Shown here: positions 10,710 to 26,152 of the stretch, piece by piece | How the letters are laid out: each line of letters opens with the position of its first letter | Numbering within the stretch: position 1 is the stretch's first letter | Source: Candidatus Termititenax sp. | GTDB lineage: Bacteria; Margulisbacteria; Riflemargulisbacteria; GWF2-35-9; DYQY01 | Assembly (NCBI GenBank): GCA_020719045.1 | Contig: DYQY01000003.1 | Span: 126,149-163,646 of the forward strand | Direction: 5' to 3' | DNA length: 37,498 nucleotides | The notes under the pieces: generated by a model | Told to the model about the DNA's origin: nothing | The model's database searches: none | Seen by the model: only the letters and a program-made list of their open reading frames with translations | Program-made: the position numbers and the translations under genes

Positions 10710-11549
10710 TTAAAAGATAACTTTAAATGTTTTTACTTGGATATCGTTTAAGAAGACATCAACTCTGTTCCCAAGGGTTTCTTCAAACTCAAAAGAAAAG
10801 TCTTTGCCAGAGTCAACTTTTTCGTTATAAAGCGGTTTTGCGCGATTGTTGGCAACTGTAACAATTTTAATGTTGTTCTTTTTTGTAGCTTCTTCAGCCG
10901 GCATTTGTAATGCTATCTTAACTAGGGCTTTATTTTCTCCTTCTGCTATTTTATGCACAGATACAGATACAGGAAAGCCTTTTGAGATAGTAGCTTCAAT
11001 AACAGTGTTTCTTTGGATATATTCTCCAATGTTTGGACTTGTTGAAATGATAGTTCCTTCTTTGTATTCTGAGGAAAACACTTCGTCAAAGGTAGTAACC
11101 ATAACATTGTAGTCCATTAGTAACTCAGTAGCCTGTTCGATGTAGAGTCCTTTTATATCATGTAGGCTGACTTTTTCTTGACCGCTATTTACGATGTAAA
11201 GAATTTTTCTGCCACTTTTTACTATGCTACCTGCTTCTGGGTCTGTAGCGAGAATAATGTTTGGTTGTGCTTCTTCAGAAAAGCGACTTCCTCCAAGGAA
11301 TGGTTCAAGTTTGTATTTTTTTAGAACATACTCTGCATCATACACATCTAGCCCAACAACATTTGGGACCCTTACATCAGGGATAGCTTTTATATAGTTA
11401 ACAAGAAAAGAATATAGTAGTGCGCACCCAAGACCAATAATTGCAATAATAACAGCATAGGTAATCAGAAGTTTCTTTTTTTTGCTAGCCTTTTCAGCAG
11501 CAATATCTTCATTTTTTTTAGTTTTATTGTCTTTAACCTTATCAGCCAT
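10710..11549 (-). CDS. Membrane-anchored PASTA-domain protein (no kinase)
   Basis: A 279-aa protein with a lysine-rich cytoplasmic N-terminus (about 1-27), one membrane helix (about 28-50) and two extracytoplasmic PASTA repeats. The first begins VRVPNVVGLDVYDAEYVLKK (about 60-122) and the second LHDIKGLYIEQATELLMD (about 124-190). A beta-rich tail of about 85 residues follows. PASTA domains bind peptidoglycan fragments or muropeptides in PrkC/PknB kinases and in PBPs. Here there is no kinase or penicillin-binding domain, although the gene occupies the place of prkC upstream of rsgA-rpe. Likely a cell-wall-binding protein; its exact role is unknown. Confidence 0.8.
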   Translation of the reverse strand: MADKVKDNKTKKNEDIAAEKASKKKKLLITYAVIIAIIGLGCALLYSFLVNYIKAIPDVRVPNVVGLDVYDAEYVLKKYKLEPFLGGSRFSEEAQPNIILATDPEAGSIVKSGRKILYIVNSGQEKVSLHDIKGLYIEQATELLMDYNVMVTTFDEVFSSEYKEGTIISTSPNIGEYIQRNTVIEATISKGFPVSVSVHKIAEGENKALVKIALQMPAEEATKKNNIKIVTVANNRAKPLYNEKVDSGKDFSFEFEETLGNRVDVFLNDIQVKTFKVIF

Positions 11550-11627
11550 GTTTAAGATAACCTTTCTTTGATTAAGAGCAAGTATACCGTGAAGCAGTAA
11601 TCGTTATCAAGTTTTATAAATACTAAC

Positions 11628-11656
11628 TTGCCTAATGTGAGCATCTTTCATATAAT
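11628..11656 (+). promoter_or_regulatory. Promoter of tRNA-Tyr
   Basis: TTGCCT (11628-11633), a 17-bp spacer and TATAAT (11651-11656) lie 17 bp before the mature tRNA-Tyr 5' end. The boxes and spacing are close to sigma-70 consensus. Confidence 0.7.
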
Positions 11657-11672
11657 TACCTTTACGTTTTGT

Positions 11673-11758
11673 GGACAGATGGCCGAGTGGCTAAAGGCGG
11701 CAGACTGTAAATCTGCTCGGGCAACCGTACGTTGGTTCGAATCCAGCTCTGTCCACCA
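11673..11758 (+). tRNA. tRNA-Tyr (GUA)
   Basis: Acceptor GGACAGA pairs with TCTGTCC, followed by discriminator A and encoded CCA. The anticodon stem-loop CAGA-CTGTAAA-TCTG gives GUA. The variable arm is long, as in bacterial tyrosine tRNA, and the T-loop is TTCGAAT. It marks the left edge of the accessory island. Confidence 0.95.
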
Positions 11759-11823
11759 TTACGTCGCATAACACTAACTCAAATCCAAATGTTTAAAAGG
11801 TCTAGAGGCTAAAAGTGTGTTTT

Positions 11824-11852
11824 GTTTTCAGTGTAAATTTAATGCTGAAAAC
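11824..11852 (+). terminator. Possible terminator hairpin after tRNA-Tyr
   Basis: GTTTTCAG and CTGAAAAC form an 8-bp stem with a 13-nt loop, followed within 6 nt by a run of five T. It could end the tRNA-Tyr transcript or be part of an element end. The stem is AT-rich, so the call is weak. The rest of 11760-11930 holds no reading frame that I can support. Confidence 0.35.
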
Positions 11853-11930
11853 GCAACTTTTTGTTAAATATTCAAACTGTTAGGTTTGTGTTTCGGGATA
11901 GCAAAATTATGGTGACAATTCGAACCTTGG

Positions 11931-12701
11931 TCACTGAGTCATATCGAAGTGCATTTCCCATGGCAGAAACACAAAGCTAATTAGCAAGGTATCGCTGGAG
12001 ACTATGATTTTATCTATAAGTTTAGACAGTCGTAACTTGTGCTGATAAGTACCGTTGTAGGGTGAACCTGAACGGTACTTTATTAGCAGTTGCTTGATTT
12101 CACTGATGTTGATTAGTTCTTCCTTAGTTTTTGTGATGCAAAACAGCTGTTTATTGATAGTTGTTTTGAGCTGTTTTTCTTCTTCCTCAAGTTCAGTTAG
12201 TTTGGTGTTTATGATTTCGCGTTCTTGGCTTAAAAACTGGCTGGATAATAAGGTGTCTAAATATTTATCACGTTTTGTCTTTAGTTGGTAAAGATTATTT
12301 TCTGAATTCTGTTGGGATTTCTCCTGTTCATTAATTTGGTCATAATAGCTTCATTGTGCTTTAGGAGCTTGTTTTCAAATTTATTAAATTCTGTATCTAT
12401 TGATAGACTTATTAAGATTTCAACCACTCTATTATCCAACTGTTCGCAGGCAAAATGTTGTTGGCATGTTTTGCTTTTAACTCTAACAAAAGTACTCTCC
12501 TTAAAGATGGTTTCCACCTTCTGGAAGGTCGGTATTCCCGCCAGATTTGCCACGCTCGATGTAGAGGTTATGGATGTCAAAATTACGGAAATCGCAAAAC
12601 TTCCTTAGTTCCTTTTCTTGTTCTTCTAAAGAATCTCCTTCATTGGCTTGGCGTTCTGTAGATACTCGAAGATATAACGCTACTTTAAAATTGTTTTTCA
12701 T
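11931..12701 (-). pseudogene. Large serine recombinase, degraded copy A
   Basis: Remnant of a site-specific large serine recombinase. The N-terminus keeps the resolvase start with catalytic Ser (VALYLRVSTERQANEGDS) up to ERGKSGGNT near residue 57. An internal deletion then removes most of the catalytic and recombinase domains and shifts the frame. The next piece, PTFQKVETIFKESTF (about 12520-12560), matches TFEKVQQIF of the other copy at 23,3xx. The zinc-ribbon region is also shortened (KTCQQHFACEQLDNRV). A further frameshift near 12345 leads into the C-terminal coiled coil (LTELEEEEKQLKTTI) and tail ending at 11931. It cannot make an active recombinase. It faces outward, towards tRNA-Tyr. 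Confidence 0.85.
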
Positions 12702-13121
12702 TCATTTCTTTTCACCTTTCACTGTTCACTTTTCACTCAAAGCTGGCTACTTTAGGTAGACAGCTTTGTAAGCACCTTCCCAGCAACCACCACAAAGAAG
12801 AGGCTTCCATTTGATATTAGGAAACTCCGGAAGAGCACAATCCAAACAAAATATAACCACCTGCAACTGTCCAGCAAGTGCCTTGCGGATAGTGAACAAA
12901 CTTCCCTTGCTATCGCCATGCAAGAAAGCAACTATGCCAGATACAGCTTCGATTAACCGCATGTTACGTTGTAGGAGCCCAGTGCGAACTATGGGATATT
13001 CTTCCTTGCCTTGTAGACTGCCCCAGATAACGAAACCACCATACTGCTTGAACTGCCTAGTAAGTGAGCGGACTTTGACTGGAAAACCTTCATAGGTACA
13101 CCAAGGACTGTACAGCGTGCC
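12607..13121. repeat. Inverted repeat arm A (SLOG end plus recombinase start)
   Basis: 515 bp that match 22589-23102 in inverted orientation, with scattered, mostly third-position differences. The arm covers the last 125 codons of a SLOG-fold gene, the 45-bp spacer and the first 33 codons of a serine recombinase. Outside the arm the two copies diverge at once. Confidence 0.9.
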
Positions 13122-13931
13122 AGAAGTCTGAATTGCGGTGCTAAATTCCGACACGTCTTTAATAAGCTCCTGAGTGAGTCTGGCCTCGAAGCCATTTCCT
13201 AGCTTCAGGCTCAATTTATCCTTGTCACTCATTTGGAACTCGCTACCGAATACAATGGACTTCACTTCACCATTATCATAAGTAACTTCAAAAGTAAGAC
13301 CAACTCCATCTGAGGCTTTCCACTGCCCGAAGATACTAAGGTCTTTATTCTGTGACCCTATCATGATTTTTGTTTTTATTTGATTCTTTTCCAGTAACGA
13401 TGTGCCGACTTTGAAATCAAATCCAGAAACACTCAAATTACTCAATTCATAGTATAACCGATTGTTTTTGGTGATATCCCAAGTGCCTTTAAAAGTCAGT
13501 TGATGCGTTTCCTTTTTCTTGAAAATAAGACTGGCTGTTTCATACTCATAAATAATTCTATTTTTGTCATCTATAATCCAAGTATTAGTGAAAGTAAGAA
13601 CATCATGTCGACCAGATTCTTTCTTTACCTTAAAGATGAGTTTATTGTTTTTATCTGCTTCCCAAACTCCTTGAAGTGCAAGTAAATCGGTTGCAATCTT
13701 GGAAGTATTTTCATTATGACTCACTTCAAAACTAAGAATATTAGGGAAAACGTCATTGAAGCGACCTGATAAAATAATTTTGTCACCAAACTGGGTGTCT
13801 TGAGTCGCGTCTATCGTGATACAGAGTTCATGGTCAGTCGTAAGAGACCAGGTTCCATCGACAGTAACGTTCTTGTTAATAACAAGCTGATTTTTGGCAT
13901 TAATAGAGCAAGTTTTAATAGCTGTGCTCAT
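12747..13931 (-). CDS. Beta-repeat protein fused to the C-terminal part of a SLOG (DprA-like) domain
   Basis: 394 aa in two unrelated parts. Residues 1-270 are beta-rich and carry a degenerate motif GxWxxxxxNxLxFxV near residues 26, 88, 117, 149, 202 and 229. I do not recognise the family. Residues 271-394 begin GTLYSPWCTYEGF and carry GSLFTIRKALAGQLQVVIF. They correspond to the second half of the SLOG protein at 22465-22963, with few amino-acid differences. The switch point, 13121, is exactly the end of the inverted repeat arm. The fusion therefore looks like a recombination product rather than an evolved domain pairing, and the Rossmann-type nucleotide-binding GSR...GGAxGAD half is missing. 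The start overlaps the preceding gene in ATGA. Confidence 0.6.
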   Translation of the reverse strand: MSTAIKTCSINAKNQLVINKNVTVDGTWSLTTDHELCITIDATQDTQFGDKIILSGRFNDVFPNILSFEVSHNENTSKIATDLLALQGVWEADKNNKLIFKVKKESGRHDVLTFTNTWIIDDKNRIIYEYETASLIFKKKETHQLTFKGTWDITKNNRLYYELSNLSVSGFDFKVGTSLLEKNQIKTKIMIGSQNKDLSIFGQWKASDGVGLTFEVTYDNGEVKSIVFGSEFQMSDKDKLSLKLGNGFEARLTQELIKDVSEFSTAIQTSGTLYSPWCTYEGFPVKVRSLTRQFKQYGGFVIWGSLQGKEEYPIVRTGLLQRNMRLIEAVSGIVAFLHGDSKGSLFTIRKALAGQLQVVIFCLDCALPEFPNIKWKPLLCGGCWEGAYKAVYLK

Positions 13932-14122
13932 GCTTCTTCAGGTGTGTCACTTTCTGGGTCAATCCATTTGATTTTTTGTCCACAATAAGGACAGAATCTG
14001 AATCTTACTCCATCTTCCTCAAAATCACTAAAAGTATCTTTGTCAGAGGCTTTAGCTAGCTTGGCGCTGTCATCTGCACCGTAATACCCTACAAGATGAT
14101 TACATGTAATGATTTTGCTCAT
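13928..14122 (-). CDS. Small CPYCG zinc-ribbon-like protein
   Basis: A 64-aa acidic protein with CPYCG near residues 44-48 and an earlier cysteine (TCNHLVGYYG). It looks like half or all of a small zinc ribbon of the type often found in phages and mobile elements. The function is unknown. Its TGA overlaps the ATG of the beta-repeat gene by 4 bp, so the two form a coupled pair. No clear Shine-Dalgarno precedes the ATG at 14122. It is divergent from the ATPase gene at 14248. Confidence 0.55.
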   Translation of the reverse strand: MSKIITCNHLVGYYGADDSAKLAKASDKDTFSDFEEDGVRFRFCPYCGQKIKWIDPESDTPEEA

Positions 14123-14200
14123 AACTATAATTTAACGCTATAATGGAATCAGAATCAATAGGACTTGTGATATAAGTTATTAACGGTACCCTCCCACCTT

Positions 14201-14227
14201 TTGAGTCCATCCTGTCAATGATATAAT
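14201..14227 (+). promoter_or_regulatory. Candidate promoter of the ATPase-primase unit
   Basis: TTGAGT (14201-14206) and TATAAT (14222-14227) with a short 15-bp spacer end 20 bp before the first ATG. An alternative with better spacing is TTGCTC (14115-14120), 18 bp, TATAAT (14139-14144). The 125-bp divergent gap thus holds two plus-strand candidates and no obvious operator. Confidence 0.4.
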
Positions 14228-14247
14228 GAACTAAAGATATTTAAAAA

Positions 14248-15741
14248 ATGGAGCAAACTAAAAAAATGGAACACAATTTAATCGAAACCATTCTAGCAAT
14301 CCCCGCCGAAACCCAAGGCATCGAATTCAAAAGGCTTGGCGGAGAATCCGTGGTCAAAAAGTTATTGCAGACCATAGTAGCCATGGCAAATACTGAGGGT
14401 GGCTATATTGTTCTTGGTGTTGATGATCCAGAGAAATCGAAATTAAAGGGATTTGATAGAATCTATGGAATTGAGGAAAACTTAACATCCTATGATGAGC
14501 TTGAACGGGAAATCAAGAATATAACACCACCATTGATAGGTATATGGCCAGGTCAAATCATTGAGATTTTAAACATACAAAAGCGGGTCGTCTTATTAAA
14601 TATTCCTAAAGTTGTTAATAGTTTCCGCTCCATTAACAACCAGGTGTTTATCCGGCAGGAAAAAGGTAATCGGCAGATTACTGCACATGAGTTGGTTAAA
14701 TTTGCTTATGCAAAGGGATTTGAAAAGGCTGACAAGCAAGTAGTTGACGTGCAATTTGATCTCTTGGAGACACCATCCTATCAATCTTGGCGAGAGACTA
14801 GACGATTAAGCGGTAAAATTACTACAGTTCTTGAACGAACCGGGCTGGCACGTATTGACAAGGAAGGAAAATTGAAACCGACATTGGCGGCGTTATTATT
14901 ATTTGCTGAGTTCCCTAGCGATTTGACAGAAACCAAATGCGCTATCCGCGTTATGCAATATGAAGGTACGATAGAAACTATCACCGATAAACCAAATCTG
15001 ATTGGTGTGCCTAAAACTATTCAAGGACCACTAGTTCAACAACTGGCTAATGCCCATGAGTATGTATTAACCTTGTTACGCACAGGTATTCAGGTACCTT
15101 CTGGTTTCCGAACACGGTATATTATTCCTGAAAGAGCTATTAAGGAAGCACTAACTAATGCTGTGATCCACAGAGACTATTACATCAAACGCGACATCGA
15201 GGTTAAAATTTATGAAGATCGTGTTGAGGTTGAAAGTCCTGGGCTACTTCCTTACAACATCACCTCACACAATATTGGGCATGTTCGTGCCGAGGGTTAT
15301 CGTAATGACTTATTGGTTAAACATCTTCGAGAATTCCCAGAGCCTCCTAACCTTGATCAAAATGAAGGGGTGCGTGCGATGCGTGCTGAAATGCAGGCAA
15401 AGGATTTATATCCCCCTTTATTCTGGTCGTATCCCCATACACAGGACTCAGTTAGAGTAATCCTTTTGAATGAACATAGGGCGGATGAATGGGAAAAAAT
15501 TTCTTTTTACTTAACAGATCATCCCTATCTTACAAATGAAGAAGCACGCAAGCTAACTGGCGTCATGCATCGCGATAAAATGTCGCGTTTACTCAATAAA
15601 TGGGTAAATCAAGGTGTTTTAGTAAAGACCGTTCCTTCAACAGGTTATGTGAGGGGAACTCGTTACAAATTACCAGACTCGAGGGAGATACAACAGAATT
15701 TTTATGAGGATCCCACTAATACAAGTAAAAATAAAGTCTAA
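14248..15741 (+). CDS. Schlafen/AlbA_2-GHKL ATPase protein (ATP-binding, RecG-related family)
   Basis: A 497-aa cytoplasmic protein. Residues about 15-155 are an AlbA_2 (Schlafen-type) putative nucleic-acid-binding domain: QGIEFKRLGG, MANTEGGYIVLGVDDP and the arm VFIRQEKGNRQITAHEL. Residues about 290-400 are a GHKL-type ATPase domain (HATPase_c_4) with N-box PERAIKEALTNAVIHRDYY and VEVESPG. A winged helix near 435-480 (LTNEEARKLTG...LLNKWVNQG) ends the fold. Such proteins are annotated as ATP-dependent helicase RecG-like or transcriptional regulators, but no helicase domain is present. Many sit in defence islands. An ATG at 14266 is an alternative start; neither has a good ribosome site. The primase-helicase gene follows after 45 bp. 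Base composition is less AT-rich than the flanks, suggesting transfer. Confidence 0.8.
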   Translation: MEQTKKMEHNLIETILAIPAETQGIEFKRLGGESVVKKLLQTIVAMANTEGGYIVLGVDDPEKSKLKGFDRIYGIEENLTSYDELEREIKNITPPLIGIWPGQIIEILNIQKRVVLLNIPKVVNSFRSINNQVFIRQEKGNRQITAHELVKFAYAKGFEKADKQVVDVQFDLLETPSYQSWRETRRLSGKITTVLERTGLARIDKEGKLKPTLAALLLFAEFPSDLTETKCAIRVMQYEGTIETITDKPNLIGVPKTIQGPLVQQLANAHEYVLTLLRTGIQVPSGFRTRYIIPERAIKEALTNAVIHRDYYIKRDIEVKIYEDRVEVESPGLLPYNITSHNIGHVRAEGYRNDLLVKHLREFPEPPNLDQNEGVRAMRAEMQAKDLYPPLFWSYPHTQDSVRVILLNEHRADEWEKISFYLTDHPYLTNEEARKLTGVMHRDKMSRLLNKWVNQGVLVKTVPSTGYVRGTRYKLPDSREIQQNFYEDPTNTSKNKV

Positions 15742-15786
15742 CAACCACAAGGGATTTGCAATTTTTTACATGCAAAATCATCACAA

Positions 15787-18693
15787 ATGAACTACAATCA
15801 ACTTTTTATTAAATATCAAACGCTTCTTGAAGAAAATGCTACCCTCAAGTCGGAAATAGACAAACTAAAACAAAAAGCTACCCTTTTAGCAAGTGATGGG
15901 CAACTTTCTCTAAAAGAAGCACCCCAACTTTTTATTCTTGAAACGCCAAGCCTGTTTGCTATACCAGTTGAAAAATCAACCCAAACAACATCAATATCGA
16001 ATAATCAAAGCAAAATAATGTTGTTCATGTCACTTTTTAAGGGACGAGAGGATGTCTATGCCAAACGTTGGGAAAATAAAGAGGGGAAGTCTGGATATAC
16101 ACCTAATTGCTTGAATGAATGGAAGAAGGGTATTTGTCAGAAACCTCAAATGAAATGTTCCTCTTGCTCTAAGAAAAACTACTCCCAGTTAAGCGAATCT
16201 GTTATCGAACTCCATCTTCGTGGCGATATTACTGTTGGAGTCTACCCTATGCTTGCTGATGAGACATGCTATTTCTTGGTGATTGATTTTGATAAAACGA
16301 CATGGGAAAAAGATGTTTCTACTCTAAGAGCTGTTTGTGCTGAGGTCAATATTCCTATAGCCATTGAACGATCGCGCTCTGGGAATGGCGCCCACATTTG
16401 GATATTTTTTGAAAGCCCCATCTCATCAAGTCTTGCGAGGAAGCTAGGAACGGCAATTCTTACCCACGCCATGAGTCTGCGCCACGAAATTTCTTTCAAC
16501 TCGTATGATAGATTATTTCCTAATCAGGATACGCTACCCAAAGGTGGTTTTGGAAATTTGATAGCGTTACCACTGCAAGCCAATCCAAGAAAATGCGGAA
16601 ATAGTGTATTCGTCGATGAATTATTTCAGCCATATCACGACCAATGGAAATATTTATGTACCATCCAAAAACTCTCTGAAAGTAATGTTGCTACCCTTAT
16701 CAATAGGCTTTGCGGAGGTAATGAGCTTGGTGTTTTGAAAGCGGATACAGAAGAAGATCACAAACCATGGATAAGGTTCAAGCAAACTTTAACAAAAGAA
16801 GACTTTCCTCTTAGAGTTAATCTGGTAAAAGCTAATATGCTTTACATCGAAAAACAAGGGATCTCTCAGCGGGCGCTAAATCAAATAAAGAGACTAGTAG
16901 CCTTTAAAAATCCTGACTTCTATAAGGCACAAGCTATGCGAATGCCTACCTTCAATAAACCACGAATTATTGCTTGCTCGGAAGAAACAGAGCAATATTT
17001 AAGCTTACCTCGAGGATGCGCATCTGATGTGTCAGATTTATTAAATAGATTAAATATTCGAACATCTTGGACAGATGAAACTAATAGCGGAAGAGACATC
17101 AATGTTGAGTTTAATGGAGTTCTACGAGAAGAGCAACAAGAAGCAATTTCAGAACTCATGAAACACAATGAAGGAGTTCTCGCAGCCACAACTGCTTTTG
17201 GAAAAACCGTTATTGCCGCGAATTTGATTGCTAAACAAAAAGTAAATACATTGATTTTAGTTCATCGCCAACAGTTACTCGTTCAATGGGTTGCGAGACT
17301 GTCAGAGTTCCTCATCATTAATGAAGAGGAACCTATCATCGAACAGAAACGTGGTCGGAAAAAGAAGCTCGAACTTATTGGTCGATTAGGTGCAGGAAAA
17401 GATCAGCTGAGCGGTATAATTGATATAGCTATTATGCAATCCCTGAACTATGCTGGTGACGTTAAAGATTGCGTCAAAAACTATGGCATGATCATTGTAG
17501 ATGAGTGTCATCATATTCCTGCATTTAGTTTCGAACAGATTCTCAAGAAAGCCAACGCAAAATACATCTATGGTTTAACCGCTACACCATCCAGACAAGA
17601 TGGGCATCATCCTTTGATTTTCATGTATTGTGGTCCTATTCGATATCGTGTCGATGCCATCAAACAAGCAGAGAAGCGACCCTTTGAACACTATGTTATT
17701 CCACGTTTTACCGGATTTCATGTCACAAAAAACCAAAAGGATAAAGACTTATCAATTCAAGATATCTATTCCGAGCTTGTTCAAGATGAACTTCGGAATC
17801 AACGCATCGTGGAGGATGTTTTTGATTGTTATTCCGAAGGACGACATTGTCTGGTTTTAACTGAACGTATAGCCCATGTCGAGATTCTTAAGAAGATGAT
17901 TTCGTCCCGTATTCCCAGTGTTATTGCTCTTAAAGGTGGTCTTGGCTCCAAAGAGACCACATCCATATTGAATCAACTGACGACAACTCCTAACGATAAG
18001 CAACTTACCCTTGTAGCAACCGGAAAATTTATAGGTGAGGGGTTCGACGAAGCCCGGTTAGATACGCTATTTCTTGCCATGCCGATTTCTTGGAAGGGTA
18101 CTTTGCAGCAATATGCTGGGCGTCTTCACCGTCTATCAGACCATAAGAAAGAAGTTCTGATCTACGACTATGTTGACGTCAGGGTAAGAATGCTCGAAAA
18201 AATGTATAACAAGCGCCTCAACGGATATGCTGCAATTGGGTACCGGGCAAAAGGTAACAAACTTGAAGATGAATCAGTTCATGTTATTTACGATAAAAGT
18301 TCCTTCTTCACTGTCTTTAATCAAGATTTGATCTGGGCAAAAAATTCTATCCTCATTGTAAGCCCGTTTATTACGCACAAGCGGATTGACCAATTGCTAA
18401 AGCTCTTAAAAGAACTACTCAACAGAAAGGTAGAAGTCACGATTATTACAAGACCATCGGAGGATTTTACGGGAAGATTTAAGTTATCATTTGAACAGAT
18501 TCTCGACGCTCTGAAACAATCTGGAATAAAGGTTATATTTAAATCTAAGATTCATCAGAAGTTCGCAATTATTGATCAAAAACTTGTTTGGTATGGAAGC
18601 ATCAACTTGCTATGCGTTGGCACTTCCGAAGAAAGCATGATGCGACTGATAAGCGGGAATATTGCCTTAGAGTTAACAAATAGTCTTACTTGA
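15787..18693 (+). CDS. TOTE-type primase (AEP)-SF2 helicase-phospholipase D protein
   Basis: A 968-aa multidomain protein. A short coiled coil (5-30) is followed by a Cys cluster (C108, C117, C124, C127). An archaeo-eukaryotic primase domain of the TOTE conflict-system type follows, with catalytic DFD (167-169) and the SGNGAHIW histidine motif (198-205). The SF2 helicase core (about 445-800) has AFGKT (Walker A, about 470), DECHH (about 571), LTATPSRQDG (about 597) and QYAGRLHR (about 774). The C-terminus is a single PLD-type nuclease motif, HQKFAIID (about 923) with GSINLL. All catalytic motifs look intact. The arrangement suggests a DNA-targeting defence or mobile-element conflict protein. 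It is probably co-transcribed with the upstream ATPase gene. Composition is less AT-rich than the chromosomal flanks. Confidence 0.85.
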   Translation: MNYNQLFIKYQTLLEENATLKSEIDKLKQKATLLASDGQLSLKEAPQLFILETPSLFAIPVEKSTQTTSISNNQSKIMLFMSLFKGREDVYAKRWENKEGKSGYTPNCLNEWKKGICQKPQMKCSSCSKKNYSQLSESVIELHLRGDITVGVYPMLADETCYFLVIDFDKTTWEKDVSTLRAVCAEVNIPIAIERSRSGNGAHIWIFFESPISSSLARKLGTAILTHAMSLRHEISFNSYDRLFPNQDTLPKGGFGNLIALPLQANPRKCGNSVFVDELFQPYHDQWKYLCTIQKLSESNVATLINRLCGGNELGVLKADTEEDHKPWIRFKQTLTKEDFPLRVNLVKANMLYIEKQGISQRALNQIKRLVAFKNPDFYKAQAMRMPTFNKPRIIACSEETEQYLSLPRGCASDVSDLLNRLNIRTSWTDETNSGRDINVEFNGVLREEQQEAISELMKHNEGVLAATTAFGKTVIAANLIAKQKVNTLILVHRQQLLVQWVARLSEFLIINEEEPIIEQKRGRKKKLELIGRLGAGKDQLSGIIDIAIMQSLNYAGDVKDCVKNYGMIIVDECHHIPAFSFEQILKKANAKYIYGLTATPSRQDGHHPLIFMYCGPIRYRVDAIKQAEKRPFEHYVIPRFTGFHVTKNQKDKDLSIQDIYSELVQDELRNQRIVEDVFDCYSEGRHCLVLTERIAHVEILKKMISSRIPSVIALKGGLGSKETTSILNQLTTTPNDKQLTLVATGKFIGEGFDEARLDTLFLAMPISWKGTLQQYAGRLHRLSDHKKEVLIYDYVDVRVRMLEKMYNKRLNGYAAIGYRAKGNKLEDESVHVIYDKSSFFTVFNQDLIWAKNSILIVSPFITHKRIDQLLKLLKELLNRKVEVTIITRPSEDFTGRFKLSFEQILDALKQSGIKVIFKSKIHQKFAIIDQKLVWYGSINLLCVGTSEESMMRLISGNIALELTNSLT

Positions 18694-18992
18694 TCACAAT
18701 ACCTATCAAGGATTATACCCAAAAAAGGTGACAGGGAAATTTGTAAGAATTATTAGTATAGATGAATATTGTGATTTAAATTTTTCATTAAAACTCACCT
18801 CTAACTCAAGTTTGATTTGTTTTTTGCTGGCACTGAACATAGACAATAATTGCTAGTATTGGAAATATATTTTATAAAAATGAAACGCTCTTCTCTCTGG
18901 TTTAACTCTACTCAACTCAAATGCGGGCACTCAACTCAACTGTAACGCTGGCTGGATGGTGTAGGGTAATTGCTTAGGGTATAATTTTAGCT
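18694..18992. other. Intergenic stretch after the primase-helicase gene
   Basis: No supportable gene. It contains short repeats of ACTCAACTCAA near 18,910-18,945 and, at 18980-18985, a TATAAT box whose expected start point falls on the ATG of the PLD fragment at 18993. No terminator hairpin is evident after the primase-helicase gene. Confidence 0.5.
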
Positions 18993-19154
18993 ATGAGACT
19001 GACAAGGCTTCTACTGTTCAGTATGTTGTTGCTCCCTTTTGGCTTACACGCTCAGATGCTAATGGGTAGAGATTACTATGACGTAGTGAAACAGCATATC
19101 ATCTCGGCAAAAGACTCTATCAATATTGCCATGTACTTTGTGATCAATTGCTGA
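18993..19154 (+). pseudogene. N-terminal fragment of a secreted phospholipase D-like protein
   Basis: 53 codons. They give a signal peptide (MRLTRLLLFSMLLLPFG, cleavage probably after HAQ), then the start of a PLD-family domain, DYYDVVKQHIISAKDSINIAMYFVIN. That pattern is typical of the first strand of PLD nucleases and cardiolipin-synthase-like proteins. The catalytic HKD motifs are absent because the frame ends at TGA where IS3-type transposase sequence begins (about 19146-19155). The gene was therefore cut by the insertion or by a later deletion. A TATAAT box 7 bp before the ATG suggests the parent gene had a very short or absent leader. Confidence 0.65.
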
Positions 19155-19339
19155 ACTTAAGTTAGGTGTTGCTAAATATATGGCTAAATACAATCATTTT
19201 AGAATACATGAATCTTTGGGTTATAAAACCCCAGCTTCAGTTTATGGAATCGATACAAAGGAGGTGTCACTGAGACAACTATTAGACAGTACAAATAGAA
19301 GTCAGTTTATCAAAATTGCTGTCTAGACAAATCAGTACA
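19146..19339 (+). mobile_element. IS3-family transposase 3' end and right terminus (remnant)
   Basis: Reading from about 19152, the frame gives the C-terminal end of an IS3-type integrase-core transposase. It has the family motif NHFRIHESLGYKTPASVYG, a basic tail and a TAG stop at 19324-19326. Thirteen bp later the sequence ends in TCAGTACA. On the other strand this is a TGTACTGA terminus, as in the IS150-like group of IS3. The left terminus, orfA and most of orfB are missing. The right terminus abuts the truncated helicase gene. Confidence 0.75.
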
Positions 19340-20507
19340 CTATAGAAAGAATATCTTTCGGTCTATTATTGTATGGTGTAGCAGTAACTAAGATAACTCT
19401 TTTGCCTCTACAGATTTGAGATAGTTTAGTAAACATATCTGTCTCTTCTGTCCTAAAACGATGTGCTTCGTCCACTATAATATTCTGATAATCTTTATGC
19501 TCATCTTTGTTAAGGATGTCATCTAAAATACCAACAGACCTACAAACATAATCTTTTGCTCTGAATCCAAAATCTTTAAAAGAATTATGCCAACTTCCTG
19601 GATTGTTTTCGTCTATTAGATGTGGAGGAGCAATAACCATGGTTCTACCATCTAATTCCTGAGCTAACATTGTCGCCATATATGTTTTACCTAGTCCAAC
19701 TACGTCAGATAAAAAAACGCCTCCATACTCTTTTAATATCCTTTTAGCATTTACAATAGCGTCTTTCTGATACTCAAATTCTTTAAATCCTTCTGGTCTA
19801 TATCCAGAATATAATGTGTAATCATCATTTATCTCTGATTGAAAATATTCGTACAAAAATTTCAAATATAACTCATATGGTGTAATGTCTTCTCTTAACC
19901 ATGTTGCTTTAATTGACTCAATGTATTTTTCGCTGACATCAACACCAGCTTCCCAGAGCTTTTCAAATTTATTTTTTGCAAATTCGTAATCTGAAACTGT
20001 TTTTAACTCAACATTAAACTCTAGATTGTCGACTAGCCCTCTTTTCGTAAAGTTGCTTGAACCAGTTATAACTCTACCCTTATCTCTATCATCTTCATCA
20101 AATGTCATGATGTAAAGTTTGGAATGAATTGTTTCAGAAGGATATGCCTTAATCTCTAGCTTCCCAGATTTTAACCACTCAAGAAAATATTTAACACCAG
20201 TTTCTACCTCTGATGAGTTTTCGCTTTCTGCCATTTCTTCTATTACTTTTTTACCATAATCATCACTTATCTGTTTATAGGATTCTATTTGTTGAATCAA
20301 ATCATAAGTTTGTCTATTAGTAGAAATCCCTATTAGAATTCTTATTTTTTCAGTTTTTTCGAGTGACTTATAAATGGAATAAAACCCACTAGTATAAAAA
20401 TATCCAACAAGAACATCAAAACACTTGGTGTCTTTGATAAGCACATTGAAACGGTCTTTAAGTGTAGCTCCTGGTTCGTTAGTAATAAATGTTATATCTG
20501 ATGTCAT
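19332..20507 (-). CDS. PLD-SNF2-type helicase, truncated by the IS3 remnant
   Basis: 391 aa remain of a protein family normally near 1000 aa. Residues about 1-190 are a phospholipase D-like nuclease domain with IHSKLYIMTFDEDD (HxKxxxxD motif) and GSSNFTKRGL. Residues about 230-391 are the first half of an SNF2/SF2 helicase: Walker A DVVGLGKTYMA, Walker B NIIVDEAHRF and motif III LVTATPYNNRPKDI. The frame then meets the IS terminus, whose TGTACTGA supplies the last codons and the TGA stop. Helicase lobe 2 is lost, so ATPase-driven activity is unlikely; the nuclease domain could survive. The ATG at 20507 follows directly on the stop of the small upstream gene. It is the last gene of the CARF operon. 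Confidence 0.8.
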   Translation of the reverse strand: MTSDITFITNEPGATLKDRFNVLIKDTKCFDVLVGYFYTSGFYSIYKSLEKTEKIRILIGISTNRQTYDLIQQIESYKQISDDYGKKVIEEMAESENSSEVETGVKYFLEWLKSGKLEIKAYPSETIHSKLYIMTFDEDDRDKGRVITGSSNFTKRGLVDNLEFNVELKTVSDYEFAKNKFEKLWEAGVDVSEKYIESIKATWLREDITPYELYLKFLYEYFQSEINDDYTLYSGYRPEGFKEFEYQKDAIVNAKRILKEYGGVFLSDVVGLGKTYMATMLAQELDGRTMVIAPPHLIDENNPGSWHNSFKDFGFRAKDYVCRSVGILDDILNKDEHKDYQNIIVDEAHRFRTEETDMFTKLSQICRGKRVILVTATPYNNRPKDILSIVY

Positions 20508-20660
20508 TTACCTAAACAACCTTCCCAATAATCTCGCAAAAAAATTACCAACAATCCTTCTTCCGATTCGTTTGCCTACTCGTCCTTTTTGAACAGCATT
20601 AACATCACCTAACATGCGAGCTAATTTGTAGTTAAAGGACCTGAATTTATTTAGGCTCAA
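20508..20660 (-). CDS. 50-aa basic protein, TTG start
   Basis: A short gene between rhuM and the helicase. It is read from TTG at 20660, with a GGAG ribosome site 7 nt upstream, to TAA at 20508-20510. The product is strongly basic and amphipathic, with YKLARMLGDVNAVQKGRVGK in the centre and Arg/Lys-rich C-terminal helices (RIGRRIVGN, ARLLGRLFR). The pattern DVNAV-x-x-GRVGKRIGRR resembles small phage and mobile-element proteins of unknown function. It overlaps rhuM by 14 bp, and its stop is directly followed by the helicase ATG, so it is embedded in the operon. An internal ATG would give only 34 aa. Confidence 0.6.
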   Translation of the reverse strand: MSLNKFRSFNYKLARMLGDVNAVQKGRVGKRIGRRIVGNFFARLLGRLFR

Positions 20661-21678
20661 TGCTATTCTCCGATTTATCTAGTAAGGTCTGAATTTCTTT
20701 ATCAAAATCAGATACAAAAAGTTTATCCTGAATAGGACGATATTTTTCAAACTCTGTTTCTGCTTTAATCTTAGCCTCAAGCATAGTTATCTTCCCAGTA
20801 TCTTTTAATAAAGGATAATCAGCCAATTCAAGAAACTGTACTAGAAAAGCATCCCAGTCATTCATGTTCATTACTTTTCTATTAATAGCCCTATTTTCTG
20901 CCATATCTAAATAAGCTGTTACAATCCTTTCTAATTGTTTAAGGTGTTCTTCCTTAAGATAATTTTTAGCTATGGATACATCACTTTTTAAGATCTTTCC
21001 ATTAGGAGCATGTTTCCAGTTTTTTAGCCCCATATATGTCTTATTTGCGTCAGCTTCATCATAAATTATTTCAGCAGCTGTTCGTCCTGTAATAGCCCAA
21101 TGAAGTTTGTTTTGTACTGTTGCAAAAAACTGTTGTGTAATCTCTGATTGGCTGTCGTAGTCGGCTGATAAAGCGTATATATCAGTAATTTTCTGATATA
21201 TCCTTCTTTCGCTCAAACGAATCTCTCGTATACGCTCCAGCATTTCTTCAAAATAATCTTCTCCAAAATGCTTTATTTGTTTGAGTCTTTCATCGTCCAT
21301 GGAAAACCCTTTAATAATGTATTCATGAAGAATTTGGTTTGCCCATTTTCTAAACTCTATGGCACGATGAGAATTAACCTTAAACCCAACCGCTATTATT
21401 GCCTGTAAATTATAAAATTTAGATGTATAGTCTTTCCCATCTTCAGCAGTGTGTCGGAAATCCCGACATACTGAAGTTTCATCTAACTCGCCATCTTTAA
21501 AAATATTAATCAGATGTTCTGTAATAGTAGAGCGACCTTTTTCAAATAGTTCTGCTATCTTTTTCTGGGTCAGCCAAAGAGTTTCTTCATAAAAGAATAC
21601 ATCAATGTTGACTTTTCCATGTGAGGTTTGAAAAACTACAAAATTATTAAAAGACTGCAACTCTTTATTTGTACTCAT
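20647..21678 (-). CDS. rhuM: RhuM family protein
   Basis: 343 aa, similar over its length to RhuM, a protein first noted in a Salmonella pathogenicity island and now common in mobile and defence contexts. An N-terminal winged-helix-like segment contains LWLTQKKIAELFEKGRSTIT and the family block YNLQAIIAVGFKVNSHRAIE (about 88-107). FRKWANQILHEYIIKGF and SERRIYQKITDIYALSADYD follow. The C-terminal half is helical (TYMGLKNWKHAPNGKIL). The biochemical role is not established. DNA binding by the N-terminus is a reasonable inference. It overlaps the CARF gene by 4 bp (ATGA), so it is translationally coupled to it. Confidence 0.85.
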   Translation of the reverse strand: MSTNKELQSFNNFVVFQTSHGKVNIDVFFYEETLWLTQKKIAELFEKGRSTITEHLINIFKDGELDETSVCRDFRHTAEDGKDYTSKFYNLQAIIAVGFKVNSHRAIEFRKWANQILHEYIIKGFSMDDERLKQIKHFGEDYFEEMLERIREIRLSERRIYQKITDIYALSADYDSQSEITQQFFATVQNKLHWAITGRTAAEIIYDEADANKTYMGLKNWKHAPNGKILKSDVSIAKNYLKEEHLKQLERIVTAYLDMAENRAINRKVMNMNDWDAFLVQFLELADYPLLKDTGKITMLEAKIKAETEFEKYRPIQDKLFVSDFDKEIQTLLDKSENSIEPK

Positions 21679-22271
21679 AACAATACAATCTCCCCAAAAT
21701 CTGTAAGTTTTATTTGTTCATTATCTTTAACAATAACATTTATTTCTGTAAGTTCTTTAATATAACGATACACTAGTCCTCTAGAAAACTTAATTTTCTT
21801 TGCAATAGTAGCTGTGTTTATCTCTTTATTATCTTTTATTATATGTAATATTTGAAGTTGTGACTCATTAATTGGATAAAACATTTTTGGTAAAAGGATT
21901 GGCTGGTTATTTTCCTCTTGTACATAAGTAATCTGTTTAATTCTTTTTGCTCTTGCATAAGAACCATAAAGTAGCCCAAGCGATTTAGGTTTTCGTCCTG
22001 AGGTTATATCAATAAATATTTCTTCCTTTTCAGGGATTTCATCAATAATATTTACAATTTCACTAGCAACAGAAAGAATATTATAAAGGTCAGTTACTTG
22101 AGTTTTAAATTTTAGAACCTTACCTAAAGACTCTTCTATAATGCGGATGCTTTCGGTCATAGTTTTATCTGGGGTTTTATCAATTAAGGCTATTACACTC
22201 TCAATAGCAAATTTATTGCAGATAGTTAAGATGGCATGTGGTTGATATATAGTAGCTATAAGTATTTTCAT
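21675..22271 (-). CDS. CARF-winged-helix regulator, Csa3-like
   Basis: 198 aa. The N-terminal domain (about 1-120) is Rossmann-like and has the CARF pattern: a first strand MKILIATIY, an alternating alpha/beta core, and the ligand-loop strand IFIDITSGRKPKSLGLLYG (about 86-104). In CARF proteins this corresponds to the site binding cyclic oligoadenylate or related nucleotides. The C-terminal domain (about 130-198) is a winged helix, LQILHIIKDNKEINTATIAK then KFSRGLVYRYIKEL. The layout matches Csa3, the CRISPR-linked transcription factor. No cas genes or repeats are in the window, so it is a stand-alone CARF regulator leading a four-gene operon. A promoter should lie in the 22272-22340 AT-rich gap. 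Confidence 0.72.
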   Translation of the reverse strand: MKILIATIYQPHAILTICNKFAIESVIALIDKTPDKTMTESIRIIEESLGKVLKFKTQVTDLYNILSVASEIVNIIDEIPEKEEIFIDITSGRKPKSLGLLYGSYARAKRIKQITYVQEENNQPILLPKMFYPINESQLQILHIIKDNKEINTATIAKKIKFSRGLVYRYIKELTEINVIVKDNEQIKLTDFGEIVLL

Positions 22272-22429
22272 TATATAAATAATAACAGTAAAATTATTTG
22301 TTTACAACAGCATTAACAAAGTCTACTTTTTTGTATACTATTATCCGTTTACCTCCTAAAAAATAAATAAAAATAATTCTTTAACAAGCATTTCTTTTTC
22401 TGGTTTTTCTGTGCCCCATCAAAGCAGTT

Positions 22430-22446
22430 CTCAGCCTTAGGCTGAG
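22430..22446 (+). promoter_or_regulatory. 17-bp palindrome before the SLOG gene copy B
   Basis: CTCAGCC-TTA-GGCTGAG is a perfect 7-bp inverted repeat. It lies six bases before an AAGGAGG ribosome site (22452-22458) and 19 bp before the ATG at 22465. It may be an operator or an mRNA hairpin controlling the SLOG gene. The 190-bp gap 22272-22464 otherwise holds only AT-rich sequence between the divergent CARF and SLOG genes. Confidence 0.4.
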
Positions 22447-22464
22447 GACAAAAGGAGGCACAAA

Positions 22465-22963
22465 ATGTCAGTAGTAAAACATATTGGGGTTATAGGTTCA
22501 AGGTCGTTACCATATAGCTAGTGGTGGGGCTATTGGAGCAGATGAATATTGTCTTAACCAGTTAGTGCATCTTGGTGAGAGCAGCAAAGGCACACTGTAC
22601 AGTCCTTGGTGTACCTATGAAGGGTTTCCAGTCAAAGTCCGCGCACTTACTAGACAGTTCAAGCAGTATGGTGGTTCAGTTATCTGGGGCAGTCTCCAAG
22701 GTAAGGAAGAATATTCCATAGTTCGCACTGGTCTCTTGCAACGTAACATGCGGTTAATCGAGGCTGTATCTGGCATAGTTGCTTTTTTGCATGGTGAGAG
22801 CAAGGGAAGTTTGTTCACTATCCGCAAGGCACTTGCCGGACAGTTGCAGGTGGTTATCTTCTGTTTAGATTGTTCGCTTCCAGAATTCCCTAACATCAAA
22901 TGGAAGCCTCTTCTTTGTGGTGGTTGCTGGGAAGGCGCTTACAAAGCTGTCTACCTGAAGTAG
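22465..22963 (+). pseudogene. SLOG-domain (DprA-like nucleotide-binding) protein with internal deletion
   Basis: The gene starts well, with AAGGAGG then ATG and VVKHIGVIGSRSLPY, a Rossmann strand with the GSR loop of SLOG/DprA proteins. The frame then breaks at TAG (about 22519). Sequence resumes in another frame as IASGGAIGADEYCLNQLVHL, the second SLOG loop, and continues to GSLFTIRKALAGQLQVVIF and the end at 22963. Roughly 20-30 codons between the loops appear deleted, with a shift of frame. The protein should be about 190 aa when intact. It is followed after 41 bp by a serine recombinase. The same pair occurs, inverted, at 12.6-13.1 kb. SLOG proteins bind or process nucleotides or DNA; its role here is unknown. 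Confidence 0.7.
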
Positions 22964-23102
22964 CCAGCTTTGAGTGAAAAGTGAATAGTGAAAGGTGAAA
23001 AGAAATGAATGAAAATAATTTTAAAGTAGCGTTATATCTTAGAGTATCAACAGAACGCCAAGCTAATGAAGGTGATTCTTTAGAAGAACAAGAAAAGGAA
23101 CT
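22589..23102. repeat. Inverted repeat arm B (SLOG end plus recombinase start)
   Basis: 514 bp, the inverted partner of 12607-13121; one base is missing near the recombinase start. The homology covers SLOG codons from GTLYSPWC, the spacer, and the recombinase up to EEQEKEL. The two arms are separated by 9.5 kb of cargo and could recombine to invert it. Confidence 0.9.
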
Positions 23103-23577
23103 CGTGCCATATCCAAAAGAAAAGCAGATTGTGGAATTAATTTTCTCAAAGTTTTTGGAAACTCGCTCCACCACAGCAGTCATGCATTACCTAAATGAAA
23201 ACGGATTCACATACCGCGACAGCAAACTATGGGATAAACGCCAAATCCAACAAATGTTGAAACAGGAAAGCTACCTCGGCAAGGTCACTTGGGGCGGTAA
23301 GGTTTATGAAGGAATTCATCAGCCGATTATTACCCCAACCACTTTTGAAAAGGTTCAGCAGATATTCCAATCTAAAACTTATACTAAAGATAAAAGCACC
23401 ACCAATGCCTTGCTGGCGAAGAAAGTTTTCTGCGCAAAATGTTCTTCCCCTTTAGCACCTAGTCACACCACTAACCAGTATAAACAGAAATATTTCTACT
23501 ACAGATGCACAGGCTCCAAAGACAAATCCCAAAAATGCCAGCGCCCCATCCATTCCCCAAAACCATGTTTGAGTTAA
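23005..23577 (+). CDS. Large serine recombinase, internally deleted copy B
   Basis: A 190-aa frame made of three parts of a large serine recombinase. The first 33 residues are the resolvase start with the catalytic Ser (LYLRVSTERQ). They jump in frame to the recombinase domain (PYPKEKQIVELIFSKFLETR, TYRDSKLWDKRQIQQMLKQE, YLGKVTWGGKVYEGIHQPII). The last part is half a zinc ribbon (CAKCSSPLAP...YYRCTGSKDKSQKC), which ends abruptly. Most of the catalytic domain and the coiled coil are missing, so it should be inactive for strand exchange. It follows the SLOG gene by 41 bp with a weak GGTGAAAAG site. It ends 10 bp from tRNA-Leu and faces outward. Confidence 0.8.
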   Translation: MNENNFKVALYLRVSTERQANEGDSLEEQEKELVPYPKEKQIVELIFSKFLETRSTTAVMHYLNENGFTYRDSKLWDKRQIQQMLKQESYLGKVTWGGKVYEGIHQPIITPTTFEKVQQIFQSKTYTKDKSTTNALLAKKVFCAKCSSPLAPSHTTNQYKQKYFYYRCTGSKDKSQKCQRPIHSPKPCLS

Positions 23578-23586
23578 CAACTCTTT

Positions 23587-23671
23587 TGGTGCTGCGGAAG
23601 AGACTCGAACTCTTACACCGTTAAGCACTAGCCCCTCAAGCTAGCGTGTCTACCAATTCCACCACCGCAGC
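23587..23671 (-). tRNA. tRNA-Leu (GAG)
   Basis: On the minus strand, acceptor GCTGCGG pairs with CCGCAGC, followed by discriminator A and encoded CCA. Anticodon stem CTAGC/GCTAG encloses loop TTGAGGG, giving GAG. The variable arm is long and the T-loop is TTCGAGT. Length is 85 nt. It marks the right edge of the accessory island. Confidence 0.95.
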
Positions 23672-23686
23672 TAATTAATAAAAAGT

Positions 23687-23715
23687 ATTATACCAGATAT
23701 TATTTATTTCCTTAA
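23687..23715 (-). promoter_or_regulatory. Promoter of tRNA-Leu
   Basis: Minus-strand TTAAGG (23710-23715), a 17-bp spacer and TATAAT (23687-23692) lie 15 bp before the tRNA 5' end. Confidence 0.6.
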
Positions 23716-23818
23716 CAGAGCTATTTCTTTATGTGTCTTTGTTTAAAAAATTAGTTTTTTGGGCATTTTAATAAAATGTTTCGATATATTACATAAGTTA
23801 CAAATTAAAGGATAAAAA

Positions 23819-26152
23819 ATGTTTAATAAAATTATAGGACTTGCTTTAAACCATTCAGTTCTATTAAATAATAATCTTAGGATTCTTCCTGCCAAAATAA
23901 GCACTAAATTACAGGAAATTATTAACAACATTAAGTCTTTGGATGACTTAAGAAAACTACTATACCTGCTTTCCACTAAGACAGACGAAGAATTAATGCA
24001 ACTTACACCTGAAAATTTTATGGTCAACGAACCATTCAGCACTGATGAATACATACAAGAATGGAGCTATTCTGACTCTTTAGCCCCCGAAATAAAGGAA
24101 AGTTGGCATATCATAAAAGGAGACATCCCCTTCTCGCTTAAATTAATAAAACTTGCTGGTGACTCTAGACTTCCATTTGAATCGTTTATGTTGGAGGGTT
24201 CCCATTATATTGTTTTGTCTCCAAAATGTTTTACTGAATGTCAGAGACTTTATGCTCTTAATTTTCAAAGTTCTAAAATTAGACATGCATTAATGGCTTT
24301 TCAGCATTTTGAACATATTGACAGAAAATTCTCTTCAGCACTAAACATGACTTTTGGTTACAGTTATAGTCCAACAAAAACTACGATAAGTTTATGGGCT
24401 CCAAAACAAACAATTGTCACCCTAAAACTCTATTCCAAGCCAAACGAGCTAACAGTAGAAACAGAAATGAACTATGACCCTAAAACAGGTAGCTGGTCAT
24501 GCGTCCTGCCTGGAGACTTAAAAGGCATGTTTTATAAATTCTCAATAACAAATGCAGGTGGCGCATCATATGAGATTAGAGACCCTGAAGCAAAAGCCTG
24601 CTCATTAAACGGCGACTTCTCCGCTATACTTGATTTAAATGAGACAAACCCAGTTGGATGGGAAACCATAGGCTTCATTCCAGAAGCAACTCCCACCGGC
24701 TCTATTATCTATGAGACTCACATTAAGGACTTCACCAGTGATGAAGAAACAAACGCCCAAACATACCATAACGTCCAAAAGAAACTTGATTACTTAAAAA
24801 ATCTAGGCGTTACACATCTTGCTTTTCAACCACTATACCAATTTGGTGGTATTAACGAAAATGATAAACATAACTATAACTGGGGCTATAATCCTAAAAA
24901 TTGGAACTGTGTCTCAGGCGCTTACTCCTCCAATCCAAACGATCCAGCAACAGCAATTAGAGAACTTAAGTCTATGATTATGGCTCTTAAAGAAAAAGGT
25001 ATTGGGATTGTGTTTGATGCAGTGTACAATCACGTCTACCAAGAAGACGACATTCTTGCAAAACTGTTTCCAGGATATTATCTCATGACCGACAACGAGG
25101 GAGACTTGCTAAACGGCTCATATTGTGGAAACCAAGTAGCTTCAGACAGAGCATTTATGAGAAAGATGATAATTGAGTCGGCTGAGTATTGGGTAAAAGA
25201 ATTTAAAGCTGACAAACTAAGATTTGATCTTATGGGATTACTAGATGTCGAAACTATGAACATATTACTAGCCAGAACAAAAAAAACTAACCCATATATG
25301 TACATCTATGGTGAACCCTGGCATATGGGTTCCTTGCCTGATAACAAAAGAGCTTCTATCGTAAACAATAGGGAAATGTCCGAAATAGGAATGTTTAATG
25401 GTAAATTCCGCGACTTAATGCTAGGTGATATTCATCATCTTCACACCAGAGGCTTATTAAGTGGTGAATTCAACACTGAATGGATAGCGAAACTCCAACA
25501 CCACGTCAAAGGATATACTGCTCAAAACTTCACGCGTCGCACACCTTTTGCGAATGCAGGACAGAATATTCTTTATGTTGATTGCCATGATAACTATACT
25601 TTTTTTGATAAATTACGAGCGACCTACCCAGGAAAAGTAAGCAAGCAAGAAGAAACTAGAATTACAAAGGAAATTAAAGCCAAATATCTACTTTCTGTCA
25701 GCATACTTGCAACCTCTCAAGGTGTTCCACTTTTATACGGTGGGTCTGAGCTATTAAGAAGCAAGGGCAATGTAAGGGATAGCTATAATTCTGGAGACCT
25801 TATCAATGCTATTCCTTGGGAAAACGAAAACCAATTCCTCGATGTTCAAAGTTATATACAAAAGATACTAGCTATCAAAAAGTCTCATCCTGCCTTTCAA
25901 ATGACTAATCCTTCAATGATAAACGACCACGTTGTCTTTCTTGATTCACCACCTAATACTTTTGCATTTAAAATAATTAACAATGCTAATGGTGATAGGT
26001 GGCGTGAAATACTAATTGTCTACAACTTCTCAGACAAGACAACAAAAACACCAGATCAATCTTTAAACTGGCACGTTGCTGTTAGAAGCAGTAGTGAAAC
26101 AGATTCATCAATAATTAAACCTTTTGAAGCTGTAATTCTTTATCAAGAATAA
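23819..26152 (+). CDS. pulA: Type I pullulanase / glycogen debranching-type GH13 enzyme
   Basis: A 777-aa GH13 enzyme hydrolysing alpha-1,6 branch points of pullulan, starch or glycogen. There is no signal peptide, so it probably acts in the cytoplasm on glycogen or imported dextrins. An N-terminal domain of about 170 residues has no match I recognise. A CBM48-like beta domain (about 180-270, ISLWAPKQTIVTLKLYS) precedes the catalytic barrel. That barrel has the pullulanase signature YNWGYNP (about 351), region I FDAVYNHV (about 398), region II LRFDLMGLLD with the nucleophile Asp (about 469), region III IYGEPW with the acid Glu (about 497) and region IV DCHDNYTFFDK (about 588). All catalytic residues are present. 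The ribosome site is AAAGGA. It is monocistronic and convergent with the spy-like gene. Confidence 0.9.
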   Translation: MFNKIIGLALNHSVLLNNNLRILPAKISTKLQEIINNIKSLDDLRKLLYLLSTKTDEELMQLTPENFMVNEPFSTDEYIQEWSYSDSLAPEIKESWHIIKGDIPFSLKLIKLAGDSRLPFESFMLEGSHYIVLSPKCFTECQRLYALNFQSSKIRHALMAFQHFEHIDRKFSSALNMTFGYSYSPTKTTISLWAPKQTIVTLKLYSKPNELTVETEMNYDPKTGSWSCVLPGDLKGMFYKFSITNAGGASYEIRDPEAKACSLNGDFSAILDLNETNPVGWETIGFIPEATPTGSIIYETHIKDFTSDEETNAQTYHNVQKKLDYLKNLGVTHLAFQPLYQFGGINENDKHNYNWGYNPKNWNCVSGAYSSNPNDPATAIRELKSMIMALKEKGIGIVFDAVYNHVYQEDDILAKLFPGYYLMTDNEGDLLNGSYCGNQVASDRAFMRKMIIESAEYWVKEFKADKLRFDLMGLLDVETMNILLARTKKTNPYMYIYGEPWHMGSLPDNKRASIVNNREMSEIGMFNGKFRDLMLGDIHHLHTRGLLSGEFNTEWIAKLQHHVKGYTAQNFTRRTPFANAGQNILYVDCHDNYTFFDKLRATYPGKVSKQEETRITKEIKAKYLLSVSILATSQGVPLLYGGSELLRSKGNVRDSYNSGDLINAIPWENENQFLDVQSYIQKILAIKKSHPAFQMTNPSMINDHVVFLDSPPNTFAFKIINNANGDRWREILIVYNFSDKTTKTPDQSLNWHVAVRSSSETDSSIIKPFEAVILYQE

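Follow-up and report, generated by a model that had tools for sequence, protein, structure and literature searches.

TOTE conflict systems consist of TPR, OB, TBP and Effector components (Aravind, Iyer et al. 2022, cited in PMC12458937). Non-CRISPR relatives of the CAPP_A helicase type of CRISPR-associated primase-polymerases (CAPP) have been found in mobile elements (PMC8211822). Proteins with a Schlafen RNase, a minimal histidine kinase and a wHTH occur in at least 1017 BREX/BR taxa and have been read as back-up suicide effectors (PMC12839542, 2026); the same paper refers to a preprint about phage defence by bacterial Schlafens. The anticodon nuclease PrrC is kept silent by a type I restriction-modification (R-M) enzyme linked to it, until a phage anti-restriction factor releases it (PMC2610378). 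Here we analyzed a locus made of a Schlafen ATPase gene (A) and a primase-helicase-PLD gene (B). Both halves are already known in kind, B as an AEP-TOTE or non-CRISPR CAPP-helicase protein (PMC12458937, PMC8211822) and A as a back-up Schlafen (PMC12839542). For their recurrent, optional pairing we found no description in the literature searched, key reviews lying outside that search.

The locus is located in a 37,498-nucleotide stretch of a Candidatus Termititenax genome (the window). Gene A (14248–15741, + strand, ATG start, 497 aa) is followed after a 45-bp gap between the ORF ends (15742–15786, +) by gene B (15787–18693, + strand, ATG start, 968 aa), exactly as the first-pass annotation of the sequence had placed the two ORFs. 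Its remark that both genes are less AT-rich than their flanks also held, the G+C content being 40.3% for A and 39.1% for B versus 34.4% and 35.2% on the two sides. No terminator-like site was found in the A–B gap. A promoter and terminator scan gave no more sites than shuffled sequences did, and an Rfam scan returned three tRNAs and nothing else.

A has the domain order by which bacterial Schlafens are recognized. Pfam identified a Schlafen SLFN_AlbA_2 domain at residues 21–144 (14308–14679, +; 3.2e-15) and a GHKL-like HATPase_c_4 domain at residues 316–406 (15193–15465, +; 3.3e-12), with an intact N-box (E300/N304) directly ahead of the latter; this confirms the earlier assignment of A as an AlbA_2-GHKL ATPase. 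A C-terminal winged-helix region (15487–15672, +) extends that assignment and is evident from the match of the family profile to HTH regulators and from helices and strands in the AlphaFold model (pLDDT 87.7). The best PDB match of the model was 3lmm, an uncharacterised protein whose alignment spanned almost the full length (E 2.9e-23), with Schlafens coming next. The AlbA_2 domain matches the RNase Schlafens SLFN13/14, and E21, E26 and D60 of A align with SLFN14 positions 206, 211 and 249. The latter correspond to SLFN13 E205, E210 and D248, whose mutants had abolished or lowered activity (PMC5862951). Because the Schlafen domain retains all three acids of a metal-dependent RNase, A more likely acts as a second effector than purely as a sensor. 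An imperfect 26-bp palindrome is present about 130 bp 5' of A (14092–14117), outside the stretch common to the closest copy of the locus (L015, see below); it is a possible operator candidate.

B joins three enzymatic domains, in agreement with its first description as a TOTE-type AEP primase, an SF2 helicase and a PLD nuclease with intact motifs. The AEP-TOTE primase-polymerase domain (PF22548; residues 76–303, 16012–16695, +; 5e-105) scored 350.6 bits against a cut-off of 27 and contains an invariant four-Cys cluster (C108/C117/C124/C127), which is an addition to that description. The SF2 helicase core (17119–18177, +) is XPB/RadD-like, with ResIII at residues 445–603 (4e-24) and Helicase_C at residues 678–783. 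It is followed by a single PLD domain (18337–18621, +; PLDc_2 at residues 851–945, 6e-13) carrying the HKD residues H923, K925 and D930. Motifs are intact throughout (D167/D169, H203, D241, GKT 472–474, DECH 572–575, QxxGRxxR and H923xK925x4D930). The AlphaFold model of B (pLDDT 85.2) matched the CAPP Prim-Pol structure 7nqd with a TMt of 0.83 and the XPB helicase structure 6p4f with a TMt of 0.65, and by sequence the PLD domain matched MkoC (1.9e-16), while the helicase matched PbeA (4e-19). Pfam, NCBIfam and PADLOC were concordant on the domains of both A and B.

The three parts of B are not equally conserved. Across 64 B relatives, the AEP catalytic residues, the Cys cluster and the helicase residues were invariant or near-invariant, whereas the HKD was complete in 42 and incomplete in 22 (L015 is counted among the latter only because its contig ends early). 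Moreover, the PLD domain was missing altogether from 72 of the 136 B genes in our first survey (see below). The cutting part of B is thus optional. Degenerate HKD motifs occur in a mostly gut Clostridia group (for example L022, L024, L027, L028, L103 and L200) in which the AEP and helicase residues stay invariant; judging from these residues, the PLD nuclease in this group may now be structural. The first-pass reading of the locus as sensing, priming, unwinding and cutting therefore has to be amended, sensing probably being too narrow a role for A and cutting a dispensable one for B.

B resembles the TOTE systems in carrying a full AEP-TOTE effector domain fused to an SF2 helicase, but no TPR, OB/cold-shock or TBP gene was present among the Pfam-scanned proteins of the island around it. 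The same three families were also absent from the 25 commonest Pfam families of 121 proteins encoded near B genes. Lacking these partners, B appears as a TOTE-kind effector without the components that define TOTE. With CAPP, B has in common the Prim-Pol fold, the catalytic residues D167/D169, H203 and D241 and a helicase that follows; it differs by the additional C-terminal HKD nuclease and by an island in which no cas genes were found among the scanned proteins, just a Csa3-like CARF regulator. An SF2 helicase plus an HKD nuclease is also the arrangement of the PLD-helicase anti-phage protein (NF042964), Mokosh MkoC and PbeA. To our knowledge, none of these carries an AEP primase. A shares its domain order and its retained catalytic acids with the BREX back-up Schlafens, but is linked to an AEP-helicase-PLD gene rather than to BREX. 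For PrrC and its type I R-M enzyme, the likeness would lie in the proposed logic, in which a DNA-targeting enzyme is backed up by a neighbour that cuts tRNA, and the genome of the window itself has an HsdR-HsdM-Schlafen locus (L229). PrrC is an ABC-type ATPase with a different nuclease domain, and serves as a model for the logic, not as a homologue of A.

The pair is situated in an island bounded by tRNA-Tyr (11673–11758) and tRNA-Leu (23587–23671). Its placement among other conflict genes, proposed in the first-pass annotation, is correct: the island holds a RhuM family gene (20647–21678, −), a CARF-HTH Csa3-like regulator (21675–22271, −) and a truncated PLD-SF2 helicase gene (19332–20507, −), all inside inverted repeats of 0.5 kb. 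The last is a 5' part only, NF042964-like and covering 24–298 of 895, and is probably a dead defence gene. The RhuM and CARF-HTH genes overlap by 4 bp, with no cas genes nearby, and no CRISPR array-like repeat was found in 11000–24500. The left repeat arm (12607–13121) consists of the 3' part of a gene at 12747–13931 (−) and the 5' end of a broken serine recombinase; the right arm (22589–23102) is 92–95% complementary to it. Each arm of about 0.5 kb thus comprises the end of one conserved gene (122–132 residues), which by eye resembles the DprA/SLOG type, and a serine recombinase start, the recombinase being broken in both. An internally deleted serine recombinase gene (23005–23577, +) abuts tRNA-Leu, and a longer recombinase ORF is present on contig C26 (L230). 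The gene that runs into the left arm encodes a 394-aa protein without a Pfam match; it has a repeat-like N-terminal part and a conserved C-terminal domain, and that domain stands alone at 22565–22963.

The inverted repeats make it possible that the island inverts or is excised between them. No direct-repeat attachment sites flanking the island were found, only the inverted repeats, and a DNA search for an empty site in genomes of the same order gave no usable alignment spanning the island. The same genome contains the arm a third time (G000:C3:122484-123107, L229), next to HsdR, HsdM and another SLFN_AlbA_2/HATPase gene. In this type I R-M locus (L229:8443-14162) the order is HsdR, HsdM and the second Schlafen of the genome; the next ORF, of 151 aa, is possibly what is left of an HsdS gene.

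To what extent A and B belong together was addressed by surveying AEP-bearing loci. The first survey covered 136 loci including the window, of which 48 came from a sequence search of genome contigs and the rest from Pfam searches across genomes sampled evenly from four phyla; the former (L001–L048) were retrieved with peptides taken from B of the window and are hence biased to its relatives. ORFs were called mechanically, many on MAG contigs, and were scored with profiles built from A and B, that is, from the same data. The A counts exclude two profile matches, namely the CARF-HTH gene of the window (21675–22271) and, in L203, a fragment of 131 aa. A later Clostridia draw added 17 new loci, giving 153 AEP-TOTE loci in total. 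In 12 of the 153, B directly adjoined an A-type gene in the same orientation, which was upstream in ten and downstream in two. Nine of the pairs were from the first survey, with A upstream in the window, L015, L017, L020, L035, L092 and L118 and downstream in L028 and L090; the later sample contributed three upstream pairs out of 17 loci (L240, L242 and L246). In L017 and L020 the A gene is broken into two ORFs and B is open.

Adjacency of A and B is far above chance. Counting ORFs of 100 aa or more in the loci of PLD-bearing B genes, the window excluded, 8 of the 47 that lay next to B in the same orientation were A-type versus 3 of 711 others (Fisher p 1.7e-8, a value that is too small because the loci are related), and two of these three were the other halves of the same broken adjacent A genes. 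The later sample nonetheless repeats the result. Consistent with this, SLFN_AlbA_2 plus HATPase_c_4 was the top Pfam pair among the 121 B-near proteins (8 members). Other common families were AAA_14, AAA_21, DUF4143, Fic and KilA-N, and also SWIM, and PADLOC matches among B neighbours included SoFic, AriA, PtuA, AbiLi and type I methyltransferases. Together with the domains and their intact motifs, these conflict-type neighbours support a likely role in defence for the locus, as had been suggested at first pass. The association is uneven, since no adjacent co-directional pair occurred in the Desulfobacterota or Bacteroidota draws except for the Chlorobiaceae MAG L015. The first nine pairs all belong to the set of 64 loci in which B carries a PLD domain or, going by its subfamily, is expected to carry one (in L015 the contig ends), and none of the 72 PLD-less B genes of the first 136 has a co-directional A beside it. 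A restriction of the pairing to PLD-bearing B was rejected all the same, as B of L240 lacks the PLD domain and is paired with A.

The pairing is optional rather than fixed and has arisen many times. When the pair label of the 12 proteins is mapped onto the A tree, it has to change at least eight times; the first nine pairs on the B tree also require at least eight changes, a value that 170 of 500 shuffles reach as well. Joint inheritance from a single origin is not what these trees indicate. Other genes occupy the slot of A in close B relatives: a YhcG nuclease in L117 where L118, in the same genome, has A; KilA-N in L034 and L036 where L020 has A; and a toxin-antitoxin pair in L005 where L017 has A. 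Thus the fixed pairing that the first-pass annotation had thought might be undescribed has to be given up, with 12 of 153 loci paired, the pairs scattered over lineages of both trees and the partners swapped. The annotation had also named what should undo the association, namely lack of adjacency in other genomes or an ATPase that pairs at random with many neighbours. The two families do recur side by side elsewhere, and the ATPase family has many other genes as partners too. As 141 of the 153 B genes have no adjacent co-directional A, B cannot depend on A. In the related Bacillota loci L020, L034 and L036, a conserved gene of 567–571 aa follows B after 62–76 bp, whatever the upstream partner.

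A is likewise found without B. Its nearest unpaired relative (L145, 59% identity) lies between a glycosyltransferase gene and miaA, and relatives at 37% and 36% identity (L146 and L147) are not beside B. Unpaired relatives at 34–37% identity have a sigma factor as neighbour, and one at 33% (L122) adjoins pyrD. AEP-TOTE was absent from three genomes of the window's phylum that hold A relatives (G067, G058 and G073). Elsewhere in the searched genomes, A-type genes adjoin HsdR, HsdM and McrBC. The closest copy of the whole pair, on the short Chlorobiaceae MAG contig L015 (which is possibly mis-binned), has 90% amino-acid identity in A and 78% in the first 588 residues of B. DNA similarity to the window is continuous from about 42 bp 5' of A, across the gap and into B, which indicates that both genes and the leader are shared as one stretch. 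Identity at 4-fold sites is higher in A (0.58) than in B (0.39), and this difference suggests that the two halves may have separate histories. A phage origin of A and B was rejected, as viral contigs held no relatives of either and phage records matched mainly the helicase part of B.

Several explanations other than a defence cassette were weighed against these data. That A and B are independent defence genes, carried as cargo by the same recombinase-borne islands and with no functional link, is possible but doubtful. It agrees with the occurrence of each gene without the other in most loci, with the partner swaps among close relatives (L117/L118, L020 versus L034/L036 and L017 versus L005) and with the recombinase remnants that bound the island. 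Against cargo status stand the enrichment of A specifically in the adjacent co-directional slot, as opposed to the island at large, which the later sample shows again, and the upstream A–B gaps of −11 to 141 bp in the first-survey pairs. We consider it unlikely that B is no defence enzyme but helps mobile elements with replication or repair, as a plasmid or island primase-helicase with A as a passenger. XPB and RadD are indeed repair helicases, B relatives occur in 279 of 72,556 plasmid records, some adjoining P4-like satellite genes (L231), and non-CRISPR CAPP-helicase proteins do occur in mobile elements (PMC8211822). The neighbours of B, however, are mostly of conflict families and not Rep or partition genes, no replication gene was found in the island of the window, and matches in phage records cover less than 80% of B, those listed all falling in the helicase region.

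Least probable is a regulatory role in which A is not an RNase but an AlbA-type nucleic-acid-binding, ATP-dependent winged-helix sensor that controls the transcription or activity of B. The winged helix, the upstream position of A in 10 of 12 pairs and the palindrome ahead of A would suit such a regulator, and the exact E, E, D triad is present in only 26 of 57 A-family members. All 12 B-paired A proteins nevertheless have the acidic triad as E, E/D, D/E, and the domain matches the RNases SLFN13/14; A is downstream of B in two pairs, and the palindrome lies outside the DNA shared with L015. Somewhat unlikely, too, is a true two-gene system, in which A would directly monitor the substrate, product or state of B and fire its RNase when B engages or is blocked, the pair being assembled repeatedly because the two activities fit.

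Our preferred reading, to which the sequence comparisons lend roughly even confidence, is a modular two-layer defence cassette with B as the primary effector and A as a detachable second one. From its domains, B would engage invading or replicating DNA, unwind it, prime or fill it, and nick it where the HKD is intact. The ATPase and winged-helix part of A might sense DNA damage, a phage factor or the failure of B; once released, the Schlafen RNase would cut tRNA or rRNA and growth would stop. Such a cassette would follow the logic of PrrC and its type I R-M enzyme and that of the Schlafen-HATPase-wHTH proteins at BREX loci. A and B need not bind each other in it, and the two-layer combination may itself be what selection favours. 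In the simplest reading, the RNase effector A forms a portable second layer that joins several DNA-targeting cores, B being one of them.

One locus is insufficient for naming a "system". The new element is the core of AEP primase, XPB helicase and HKD nuclease, which would be added to the systems known to have a Schlafen RNase as neighbour. The family would also offer a countable case of modular two-layer immunity, with the same core found together with an RNase, with another partner or alone, and close-relative pairs such as L117/L118 within one genome would provide a natural test of the added layer.
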